In this document: positions 26,058-28,398 of the stretch, one piece after another | How the letters are laid out: every line of letters begins with the position of its first letter | How positions within the stretch are numbered: the stretch's first letter is position 1 | Origin: Opitutales bacterium | GTDB lineage: Bacteria; Verrucomicrobiota; Verrucomicrobiia; Opitutales; Intestinicryptomonadaceae | Length of the DNA stretch: 64,000 nucleotides | Direction: 5' to 3' | NCBI GenBank assembly: GCA_015061945.1 | Contig: SUVP01000002.1 | Span: 124,001-188,000, forward strand | Program-made: the position numbers and the translations under genes | Notes under the pieces: generated by a model | Seen by the model: only the letters and a program-made list of their open reading frames with translations | Told to the model about the DNA's origin: nothing | Databases searched by the model: none

Positions 26058-26086
26058 GACACTCTTGTCCAAAGAATGCAGACGAA

Positions 26087-26182
26087 ATGGAAGCCTTATT
26101 TTCCAAAGGTGGAAAAATGGAAATCATCGAGAAAGAGGTAAAAGGTGACACTATTTATTTAACAGTGGAGGAAGTTTTATGA
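26087..26182 (+). CDS. Possible 31-aa ORF or gene remnant
   Basis: MEALFSKGGKMEIIEKEVKG... ending LTVEEVL has a balanced, protein-like composition that is unusual for a random AT-rich frame. It is open only from a stop just upstream and has no evident promoter or ribosome site. Its 3' end overlaps the convergent minus-strand ORF at 26155. It could be the C-terminal relic of a larger protein. No family recognised. Confidence 0.25.
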   Translation: MEALFSKGGKMEIIEKEVKGDTIYLTVEEVL

Positions 26183-26424
26183 TGAACCAAGGGCAACTTA
26201 TTATAAAAGCTTTTTCCAGATTTTATGCGATTCAAAAAGTTCTGATGCATATATTCAGAATATCTAACAGGATCAGACAAGCCATGAAGTTGGGCAAGTT
26301 CTATACCTCTCAAACTCTTTTCCACTTCAGACATCAAAGAATCGTTTTCAATGCGTTCGCATTCCGCATTTATCCATTCAAAAAGCGGATCGCTACATTT
26401 ACCAAATTCTTCGTTATTAGCCAT
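26155..26424 (-). CDS. Hypothetical acidic small protein (89 aa)
   Basis: From the ATG at 26424 the product is MANNEEFGKCSDPLFEWINA... continuing with SEVEKSLRGIELAQLHG and RYSEYMHQNFLNRI. It is rich in Glu and polar residues and looks mostly alpha-helical. An in-frame TTG seven codons upstream (26445) could also start it. The overlapping plus-strand ORF at 26179 is Phe/His/Arg rich and looks like its shadow. It lies in the accessory island after gap, with no recognised domain; a small phage or mobile-element gene is possible but unsupported. Confidence 0.45.
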   Translation of the reverse strand: MANNEEFGKCSDPLFEWINAECERIENDSLMSEVEKSLRGIELAQLHGLSDPVRYSEYMHQNFLNRIKSGKSFYNKLPLVHHKTSSTVK

Positions 26425-26502
26425 AACACAAACACCATCGGACAAAATTTCTAAAAAAACAAGTAAAAATGTTCAATATTTCATTACAGGCAAAAGGTAA
26501 TC

Positions 26503-26676
26503 CTACTGAAAATTTGCAAAAGTATTAGCAACCCCATTTATAGAATTTGAAAGATTGCCAAATCCAAGAGCATTTATCTTTGCAATTTCTGCATTGAGTT
26601 CTTGAAGTTGCGAAAGTAATTTTGCAACCTCCTCTTGATTTACTATTGTGCTAATATTTATTGTAAAATCTGACAT
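26503..26676 (-). CDS. Hypothetical 57-aa protein
   Basis: MSDFTINISTIVNQEEVAKL... then QLQELNAEIAKINALGFGN. Residues 14-38 have heptad-like Leu/Ile spacing, suggesting a short coiled coil, and the end is Asn/Gly/Phe rich. The ATG at 26676 is preferred over the upstream codons of the ORF track because those overlap the divergent cassette promoter at 26694. It could be a truncated N-terminus of a coiled-coil phage protein, but this is only a compositional resemblance. Confidence 0.4.
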   Translation of the reverse strand: MSDFTINISTIVNQEEVAKLLSQLQELNAEIAKINALGFGNLSNSINGVANTFANFQ

Positions 26677-26693
26677 TTTTAGTTCGATTTTTC

Positions 26694-26721
26694 TTGAATT
26701 GTTAAAAAAATGTGCGATATT
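26694..26721 (+). promoter_or_regulatory. Cassette 1 promoter
   Basis: TTGAAT, a 16-bp spacer and GATATT. The -10 ends 14 nt before the ATG of the first small membrane-protein gene, so the leader is about 8 nt. The surrounding CTTGAWTTGTTAAAA...TGTGCGATATT is shared with the next cassette. Confidence 0.6.
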
Positions 26722-26735
26722 CTGCTTATACAACG

Positions 26736-26909
26736 ATGATACAAGAGATTACATTTTTAGAATTTTTAGAGGTTATATTGAGCTTTATGCCTTATATTCT
26801 TTTGTGGATTTTTTTAGTATTTGTTGGTTGGACTATCATCGGGTGGTTTCAGTCTCATAAATTTCGTACCTACGGTGAGTCCTTCCATGATGAGTATATA
26901 GATCCTTAA
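26736..26909 (+). CDS. Small single-helix membrane protein, cassette 1 (57 aa)
   Basis: MIQEITFLEFLEVILSFMPY... has one long hydrophobic helix at about residues 10-33 (FMPYILLWIFLVFVGWTIIG), then a short basic stretch and a polar tail, GESFHDEYIDP. The ATG at 26736 is preferred; the ORF-track start is a GTG inside the -10 region. No Shine-Dalgarno is present and the predicted transcript is nearly leaderless. It is followed at once by a terminator. Tail and flanks are shared with two further cassettes, so it belongs to a small duplicated family. Function unknown. Confidence 0.6.
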   Translation: MIQEITFLEFLEVILSFMPYILLWIFLVFVGWTIIGWFQSHKFRTYGESFHDEYIDP

Positions 26910-26922
26910 CCCTTTTCGCTTT

Positions 26923-26957
26923 CCCTCAGTTCAGAGTTTAATCTGCTGAGGGTTTTT
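26923..26957 (+). terminator. Cassette 1 terminator
   Basis: CCCTCAG pairs with CTGAGGG, with an inner CAGA/TCTG stem, followed by TTTTTG. The same hairpin occurs after each cassette. Confidence 0.85.
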
Positions 26958-26992
26958 GTTATCGTGTAGCGTTTTCATTTATCCGATTTTTC

Positions 26993-27020
26993 TTGATTTG
27001 TTAAAATTTTGTGCGATATT
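26993..27020 (+). promoter_or_regulatory. Cassette 2 promoter
   Basis: TTGATT, a 16-bp spacer and GATATT. The -10 ends 10 nt before the ATG at 27031, implying a leaderless or nearly leaderless mRNA. Confidence 0.6.
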
Positions 27021-27030
27021 TCTCTTAGAA

Positions 27031-27189
27031 ATGGAAACGGAACCTACATTATTATTTAAGATTTTTGATTTAATACTGCAGATTATTGTGTTTTTTGTGG
27101 TAATGGGTGTCTTCGGTTTATTTATATGGTTTTGTGATTGCTTTAGTAATATCAAAGGTCCTTCTTTTTACGATAGGTATATAAAATAA
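27031..27189 (+). CDS. Small single-helix membrane protein, cassette 2 (52 aa)
   Basis: METEPTLLFKIFDLILQIIV... with a hydrophobic helix at about residues 8-33 (IIVFFVVMGVFGLFIWFCDC) and a tail, GPSFYDRYIK, that aligns with the cassette 1 tail. The ORF track opens upstream within the promoter and is too long. There is no Shine-Dalgarno. The hydrophobic core has diverged strongly from cassette 1 while the flanking DNA is nearly identical. Function unknown. Confidence 0.58.
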   Translation: METEPTLLFKIFDLILQIIVFFVVMGVFGLFIWFCDCFSNIKGPSFYDRYIK

Positions 27190-27212
27190 TACGCTCTAAC
27201 CCTTTTCGTTTT

Positions 27213-27247
27213 CCCTCAGTTCAGAGTTTAATCTGCTGAGAGATTTT
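27213..27247 (+). terminator. Cassette 2 terminator, slightly weakened
   Basis: Same hairpin as cassette 1, but the 3' arm reads CTGAGAG, which breaks one outer pair. The T-run (ATTTTG) is shorter. Confidence 0.7.
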
Positions 27248-27282
27248 GTTATCGTATAGCGTTTTCATTTATCCAATTTTGC

Positions 27283-27311
27283 TTGATTTGTAAAAAAAAG
27301 CACACGATAGT
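27283..27311 (+). promoter_or_regulatory. Cassette 3 promoter
   Basis: TTGATT, a 17-bp spacer and GATAGT, 10 nt before the ATG at 27322. A TATAAATATA follows and could shift the -10 by a few bases. Confidence 0.55.
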
Positions 27312-27321
27312 ATAAATATAA

Positions 27322-27462
27322 ATGGATACTATATTAGATATTTTTATAAACCTTTTGATCGTTATTGGAATTCCAACAATAATGCTTTTCTTCTATTCGT
27401 TGTTTGAAAAATTTTCTCAAAAATATGGTACAACCACTATTTACGATCATCTTCCAAAATGA
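27322..27462 (+). CDS. Small single-helix membrane protein, cassette 3 (46 aa)
   Basis: This gene is too short for the ORF track. MDTILDIFINLLIVIGIPTI... has a hydrophobic helix at about residues 4-27, then FEKFSQKYGTTTIYDHLPK. The stop TGA is followed in frame by TAC ATA GAT CCT TAA, i.e. the YIDP end of cassette 1, so the 3' end appears shortened relative to cassette 1. It has the same promoter and terminator context as its two neighbours. Function unknown. Confidence 0.55.
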   Translation: MDTILDIFINLLIVIGIPTIMLFFYSLFEKFSQKYGTTTIYDHLPK

Positions 27463-27474
27463 TACATAGATCCT

Positions 27475-27530
27475 TAACCCTTTTCGCATTCCCTCAGTTC
27501 AGAGTTTAATCTGCTGAGGGAATTTTCGTC
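27475..27530 (+). repeat. Inter-cassette repeat, copy 3 (terminator half only)
   Basis: Starts TAACCCTTTTCGC and contains the full hairpin. Similarity to copies 1 and 2 stops just after the T-run, so the promoter half is missing. Confidence 0.75.
27491..27526 (+). terminator. Cassette 3 terminator
   Basis: CCCTCAG...CTGAGGG hairpin as in cassette 1, followed by AATTTTCG. Confidence 0.75.
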
Positions 27531-27698
27531 TATGAGTGCTGTTTGTGCATCGAAGATTGCAAGTTTATCTCGGGTTCTGCGTTTTTCTATCGCTTTTGCA
27601 ACAAACTTTAATCGCTCTGGCGAAAGCTCAAGCAAAAATGCTCAATCCTTTATTAAAGTCAGAAAACAATGTTTTTGTAAATTGGCAGAGCAAATCGG

Positions 27699-27726
27699 TT
27701 GACATTTTTCAGCGTTGTTCTAAATA
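27699..27726 (+). promoter_or_regulatory. Promoter of the six-helix membrane protein gene
   Basis: A consensus -35 TTGACA, 16-bp spacer and TAAATA end 8 nt before the first in-frame ATG (27735), again leaving almost no leader. AGGA at 27731 could serve the second ATG at 27741. Confidence 0.6.
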
Positions 27727-27740
27727 AATAAGGAATGAAA

Positions 27741-28340
27741 ATGCTGAAAAGTTTGTTAAGATATTTAACATTATCACTTGCAAGCCTCGTGATTTTCGCA
27801 TCGCTTGTATTAACTCTTGGGCTAAATAGCACAAAGTATTTGTATTCTGAGACTGGAATTTTAGAAAACACACAACTGTTGTTGCTTGCAGTGTCGTTTT
27901 TATTTTTTGTGTTTGCAGTGTTTAATCCTAAACCACGAAAAATGATTCCGCTATTTTTTGCGTCAATGACATACGCACTATTCTTGCGAGAACTTGAAAT
28001 ACGCGATATTTTCCCAAATGTACCAAACTGGATTGAATTTCTAATCGATGGCGATGTAAAACACTGCACAAATGCAGTAATAATCGCAATTCCATTGATA
28101 ATTGCAGTAATAAACTTCAAGGTATATTTTAAAGAAGCACTAAACTTTGTATTTTCAACACAATTTGTGTATTTGATTCTCACATTTGCGTTGCTTTGGT
28201 GTGGATATTTTTGCGAAAAGAAAATCCCTAACCCCCAATACGCCGAACTTGGCGAAGAAATTTTTGAAATACTCGGATATATGATGTACCTAATGTGTGC
28301 TTGCCTCACAGAATATAAAACGAGAAAAATTTCAGACTAA
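27741..28340 (+). CDS. Hypothetical polytopic membrane protein
   Basis: A 199-aa protein (201 from the ATG at 27735) with about six hydrophobic helices. They include SLASLVIFASLVLTLGL, LLLLAVSFLFFVFAVF, AVIIAIPLIIAVINF and VYLILTFALLWCGYF, and the last helix lies in EIFEILGYMMYLMCAC. Acidic residues sit at helix ends (LRELEIRDIFP, YAELGEEIFE). The start at 27741 is favoured by AGGA 6 nt upstream, but the promoter is so close that 27735 on a leaderless mRNA is also possible. It has its own promoter and a terminator related to those of the three small cassettes, so it is a fourth unit of the island. No transport or enzyme motif recognised. Confidence 0.7.
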   Translation: MLKSLLRYLTLSLASLVIFASLVLTLGLNSTKYLYSETGILENTQLLLLAVSFLFFVFAVFNPKPRKMIPLFFASMTYALFLRELEIRDIFPNVPNWIEFLIDGDVKHCTNAVIIAIPLIIAVINFKVYFKEALNFVFSTQFVYLILTFALLWCGYFCEKKIPNPQYAELGEEIFEILGYMMYLMCACLTEYKTRKISD

Positions 28341-28363
28341 TTTAATTTTCAGACTTCCCCCCC

Positions 28364-28398
28364 CCCTCTGTTAAGATTCTACTCTGCAGAGGGATTTT
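28364..28398 (+). terminator. Terminator related to the cassette hairpins
   Basis: CCCTCTG pairs with CAGAGGG, then a T-run. Aligned over 30 nt with cassette terminator 1 it keeps 24 positions, and the A-T pair at stem position 6 is replaced by T-A, a compensatory change. A run of ten Cs (28357-28366) precedes and overlaps it. Confidence 0.85.

Follow-up and report, generated by a model that had tools for sequence, protein, structure and literature searches.

What are the three short open reading frames (ORFs) that stand in tandem, between almost identical flanks, in the 64,000-nucleotide (nt) stretch of Opitutales bacterium DNA analysed here (contig SUVP01000002.1, positions 124,001 to 188,000; hereafter the window)? 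The original prediction regarded them as an undescribed, free-standing cassette system of small single-helix membrane proteins, and considered a type I toxin, immunity or regulatory role. Its description of the units was borne out, as each of the three ORFs encodes a single strongly hydrophobic stretch (highest Kyte-Doolittle mean over 19 residues 2.4-2.9), the flanks are 93-98% identical and the cores are variable. Searches with the ORFs against Pfam, PHROG and NCBIfam returned sub-threshold matches only and PADLOC returned none, and the family is thus recognised by none of the libraries used. The free-standing system, in contrast, had to be abandoned: the flanks correspond to the ends of phage genes, and the island is almost certainly a prophage-remnant array of small genes whose place is antisense in the slot between the tail assembly chaperone frame T and the tape measure protein (TMP) gene.

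This identity emerges from the flanks. Between units 1 and 2, the 100 nt that run from one terminator through the following promoter agree at 93%, and in unit 3 the 46 nt of the terminator portion agree at 98%; within the host genome, this joining repeat is found at convincing strength at the window locus only. The "promoter" block is matched at 79-90% identity in six other genomes of the same genus, and a seventh, G009, matches the hairpin block at 92%. There, the "promoter" block is the leader of an opposite-strand gene starting MADEK.., which matches PHROG tape-measure families, while the hairpin lies within the last codons (..EKSLSRLNSEL..) of the preceding gene, a second frame that overlaps the end of a 124-amino-acid (aa) ORF. 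On the basis of position and tail-module layout, we infer that the 124-aa ORF is the G frame of the tail assembly chaperone and the overlapping frame its T frame. Read on the minus strand, the conserved flanks are evidently ends of phage genes, namely the T 3' end and the TMP leader, and the location of the hairpin inside a protein-coding 3' end explains its strong conservation.

When the proteins of the intact G009 prophage were used as tblastn queries against the window, positions 26060-27635 resolved into pieces of the genes for MuF (the G009 protein matches PHROG minor head families), a virion-morphogenesis protein, TMP and T, together with four intact small ORFs (Table 1). MuF, TMP and T face the same direction in G009 but not in the window, hence the remnant is rearranged as well as shortened. 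A similarity search found no other TMP or tail-tube relative elsewhere in the host genome. Judged from these matches, the region is a scrambled remnant of a MuF-type tailed prophage.

The comparison with intact relatives identifies the three plus-strand ORFs as a tandem array of a gene that lies antisense between G/T and TMP. The order G/T, antisense small ORF, TMP is present in six intact prophages, in G001 (an element listed as a viral contig in IMG/VR), G003 (C4), G005 (C1), G007 (two) and G009, and intact prophages of the same Opitutales genus carry one to four such ORFs in the T-TMP gap. Among 22 related small-ORF products, 21 have a membrane helix by hydropathy. T loci were then located by T similarity without using the small ORF, leaving loci that had lost T out of the count, and an open antisense small ORF was found beside T at 12 of 12 (11 from the genus itself; the twelfth, G018, from a sister genus). 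TMP is intact beside only half of these (6 of 12), and the small ORF is open at the six T loci that lack an intact TMP. TMP relatives occur in 9 of 273 genomes of the order, all within one family; a viral-contig search added nothing beyond the G001 prophage and a single distant phage, L088, which has no membrane ORF in its T-TMP gap. An independent remnant in another species (G003:C12, L053:8480-9923), where MuF and T are broken, likewise keeps a small membrane ORF with a GTG start and a second small gene (moron A, discussed below) open.

TTGATT-like and GATA(A/T/C)T-like hexamers, spaced by 16-18 nt, precede most of the 22 related ORFs and are also kept at the G003:C12 remnant, despite the loss of the TMP start there. 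At window positions 27031 and 27322, L055:18570 and L054:19562 the start codon follows the -10-like hexamer by about 7-10 nt, and the mRNAs of such units may be leaderless or nearly so; the G001 and G011 units have a longer purine-rich leader instead. Most units end in a hairpin within the coding 3' end of T; three internal G003 units lack it. The folding energies of hairpins 1, 2 and 3 of the window are -15.6, -10.7 and -18.3 kcal/mol (z-scores -4.2, -2.7 and -5.2). Across ten sequences, 94% of the cells of the outer stem are paired, compared with 28-55% in slid versions, and one pair only changes on both sides (A-U to G-C); because the same bases encode T, this pairing is moderate evidence only. 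The strand opposite the small ORFs carries the T and TMP ends, no dedicated RNA gene being seen there, and the window locus has no Rfam match to known structured RNAs or antisense-RNA families.

The small ORFs are under purifying selection in several comparisons, with ratios of nonsynonymous to synonymous substitution rates (dN/dS) of 0.10-0.12 (G011b against G005c122 and c38), 0.11 (G001 against G005c16a) and 0.33-0.37 (the G003:C12 remnant ORF against G004c3, G007c15 and G004c27). They hence survive the codon-level check named at the outset, in which a lack of purifying selection in relatives would have spoken against translation. In addition, the N- and C-terminal halves of the ORFs reassort: all four combinations of N-terminal types a and b with C-terminal types i and ii are found, in G001 (a, i), G007c17 (a, ii), G005c16b (b, i) and G007c15 (b, ii), and the identities, given as first 60 nt/last 60 nt, are 80/39% for G007c17-G001, 37/97% for G007c17-G007c15, 42/77% for G001-G005c16b and 67/26% for G007c15-G005c16b (shuffled mean 33%). 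Among the loci read, the tail KHAKC.. occurs with the TMP start FNIEVAVNAQL, and PVIKMYKK-like or YEHSD tails with NISIETKAQL or NINIETKAQL, the independent cases being too few to establish a pairing.

Arrays are not confined to the window. In the intact G003 prophage, four ORFs occupy about 1.2 kb between T and TMP, separated by three TMP-start stubs. Compared with the resident TMP start over 96 nt, the stubs have identities of 57%, 88% and 74%, so that at least two of the units are not recent copies of the resident junction. With two units at G011:C58 and three in the window, array growth is recurrent. One ORF of the G003 array (L052:10045-10191, minus strand) has the same layout but encodes a highly basic protein of 48 aa that has no membrane helix.

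What the array does can be proposed from the analogy of slot, protein type, diversification and retention. With a probability of about 0.5, the small ORFs are prophage morons that block the DNA entry of related phages and are kept after the prophage has decayed. The moron would be expressed while the prophage is quiet, by transcription that opposes the late operon, the promoter-like block reading away from TMP. Its one- or two-helix product would sit in the inner membrane and keep incoming phages of the same tail type from injecting their genomes, probably through interference with the TMP of the incoming phage or with the membrane partner of this TMP, as proposed for gp15 of phage HK97. An array would gain a unit through recombination with a related phage at the conserved T end and TMP start, the exclusion gene of that phage staying in place, and the host would retain such genes once the rest of the prophage decays. 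That the array units carry different TMP alleles was counted in favour of exclusion. It is a more tentative, rather doubtful extension that the array is an inherited bank of exclusion genes, growing by accretion of one unit per different related phage, sometimes with a TMP-start stub, and that the exchanged helix and tail modules set which TMP is blocked.

Several points weigh against DNA-entry exclusion. A generic sigma-70 consensus scan found no promoter excess and missed the promoter-like sites of the window, hence the sigma-70-like promoters of the original prediction stand on the conservation of their hexamers and not on resemblance to the consensus. Recent pairs within a 76-aa group have dN/dS of 0.7-0.8, on few changes, and the basic 48-aa protein, one of four in the G003 array, lacks a membrane helix. 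gp15 is encoded on the sense strand in single copy, whereas the window-type ORFs are antisense, and no sequence similarity to gp15 was found (hhalign probability 1.8%, from a single gp15 sequence and therefore of low power); the analogy of slot could be coincidental.

Of the competing explanations, a prophage-expressed defence acting in another mode is unlikely, although diversification would suit any defence role. The membrane peptide would then act once the DNA has entered, for instance on the tail assembly of rivals as Tab does, or by altering a surface receptor or host membrane protein in a DicB-like manner. The linkage to T and TMP fits this, and Tab, the 83-aa tail assembly blocker of the Mu-like Pseudomonas phage JBD26, is likewise a small moron, expressed from the prophage and dependent in its action on the TMP of rival phages (PMC10884400). 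However, Tab is located between terminase genes and its described action is on assembly, and a membrane helix in nearly all members suits the entry step better. That the ORFs are mere debris, no longer used in this host and surviving by chance, is improbable: no other part of this prophage is left in the genome and chance survival lasts longer for short ORFs, yet the small ORF is open at every T locus counted, including those without an intact TMP, and the G003:C12 remnant ORF retains a dN/dS of about 0.35 against relatives in intact prophages, much of which could predate decay.

It is less probable still that the unit is a timing device or antisense regulator of the phage, in which transcription divergent from TMP and convergent on T, or the product itself, would damp the late tail genes in lysogeny. 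The antisense orientation and the overlap of the promoter with the TMP leader would be expected here, but protein-level constraint, variable cores and ORFs that stay open where TMP is broken would not if only the transcript mattered, and the hairpin would stop the transcript shortly after it enters T. A lysis, pore-forming or toxin-like membrane peptide, type I toxins included, agrees with the size and hydrophobicity of the products and is the least probable of these explanations, as the genes face away from the late genes, match no antisense-RNA family and no holin or toxin family in the libraries searched, and occur as several different ones side by side in one genome. Of the three roles suggested originally, nothing points to the type I toxin, and immunity comes closest. 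If DNA-entry exclusion is correct, an orphan array of small proteins becomes an exclusion locus that can be tested, and natural arrays with reassorted helix and tail modules could reveal the part that decides specificity.

Two neighbouring genes have to be kept apart from the array. Moron A, a reverse-strand gene of about 90-105 aa, overlaps the MuF 3' end and stays intact in remnants; besides the window, its loci include L051:9578-9850, L072:3410-3664, L053:8480-8785 and L132:1123-1803, relatives occur in G003, G007, G011 and G014, and it is itself in tandem at G011:C88. Since a weak ADP-ribosyltransferase match was obtained at the C-terminus of the intact G009 MuF, moron A could be the immunity protein of MuF. 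On the other side of the array, the polytopic 201-aa protein had been taken for a fourth unit. It is unrelated to the small ORFs, and the 1.5 kb flanks read at the loci of its relatives lack the query phage genes, hence it was rejected as a member of the family. Its own family is order-wide and uncharacterised, with sub-threshold library matches only, and G014 carries two adjacent copies. A recount confirmed 24 of 30 shared bases in the hairpin 3' of this gene, which is perhaps another worn T 3' end.

Table 1. Features at and around the small-ORF array; positions are those of the window.
Feature	Position	Strand	Observation
MuF-type minor head protein gene, C-terminal end remnant	26060-26182	+	tblastn 80% over 40 aa to G009 MuF
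Moron A, intact reverse ORF	26155-26424	-	89 aa; 77% over 91 aa to ORF antisense to MuF end in G009
Virion-morphogenesis gene remnant	26469-26522	+	first 18 codons; 89% over 18 aa, E 7e-5
TMP N-terminal start remnant	26503-26676	-	46-47% over about 50 aa, E 5e-8 and 3e-8
Promoter-like site, unit 1	26694-26721	+	TTGAAT-16-GATATT; position kept before related ORFs; missed by consensus scan
Small membrane ORF 1	26736-26909	+	57 aa; antisense ORF in T-TMP gap of G009 matches at 46% over 39 aa, E 4e-9
Terminator hairpin 1	26923-26952	+	on minus strand, fragment of T 3' coding end
Promoter-like site, unit 2	26993-27020	+	TTGATT-16-GATATT
Small membrane ORF 2	27031-27189	+	52 aa; G005 and G011 ORFs match at 36-42% over 33-36 aa, E 3e-4 to 8e-4 per genome
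Terminator hairpin 2	27213-27242	+	on minus strand, fragment of T 3' end
Promoter-like site, unit 3	27283-27311	+	TTGATT-17-GATAGT; most diverged of the three
Small membrane ORF 3	27322-27462	+	46 aa; layout as ORFs 1 and 2; 60% identity with G003d over first 60 nt (33% on average when shuffled)
T frame C-terminal end remnant (tail assembly chaperone)	27474-27635	-	69% over 52 aa, E 4e-19; E 1.4e-17 in separate search
Terminator hairpin 3	27491-27520	+	within T remnant
Polytopic 201-aa protein, neighbour only	27735-28340	+	relatives in 13/105 genomes, several families of the order
Hairpin 3' of 201-aa gene	28364-28393	+	24/30 bases as in hairpin 3

Known systems place the array more precisely. 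Integron cassettes were rejected, the best integrase match being 75.9 bits against a cut-off of 265 bits and the flanks being phage gene ends. MuF polymorphic toxins of temperate phages (PMC5576092) resemble the G009 MuF, with its weak ADP-ribosyltransferase C-terminus and small reverse gene at the end, but this comparison touches the possible immunity role of moron A and not the small membrane ORFs. Tab resembles these ORFs as a small moron whose action depends on the rival TMP, as the action proposed here would, and differs in position and in the step it is described as blocking. Tab is not known to form arrays. P22 SieA, TP-J34 Ltp and Tuc2009 Sie2009 are comparable as prophage membrane or surface proteins that block DNA injection; they sit at other genome positions and are regarded as unrelated proteins. 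The TP-J34 block is overcome by TMP changes (PMC10883804).

The same source, a paper on P22 SieA, describes HK97 gp15 as a predicted inner membrane protein that prevents the injection of phage DNA; hybrids of HK97 that carry tail tube and TMP of HK022 escape this block (PMC10883804). In the HK97 annotation, the gp15 gene is a moron placed after the -1 frameshift chaperone and before TMP, with a terminator behind it, whereas HK022 has no gene in this slot; relatives of gp15 were found only in Escherichia and Klebsiella phages. It was reportedly presented as a superinfection-exclusion moron by Cumby et al. in 2012. Like the window-type ORFs, gp15 is thus a small membrane protein in the chaperone-TMP slot, and as slot and protein type agree while no homology was found, membership of the gp15 family was rejected and the small ORFs were filed as a variant within the moron/superinfection-exclusion kind, outside that family. 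The parallel suggests that the chaperone-TMP gap is a recurrent site of small membrane morons in unrelated tailed phages, in HK97 of enterobacteria as in those of Verrucomicrobiota.
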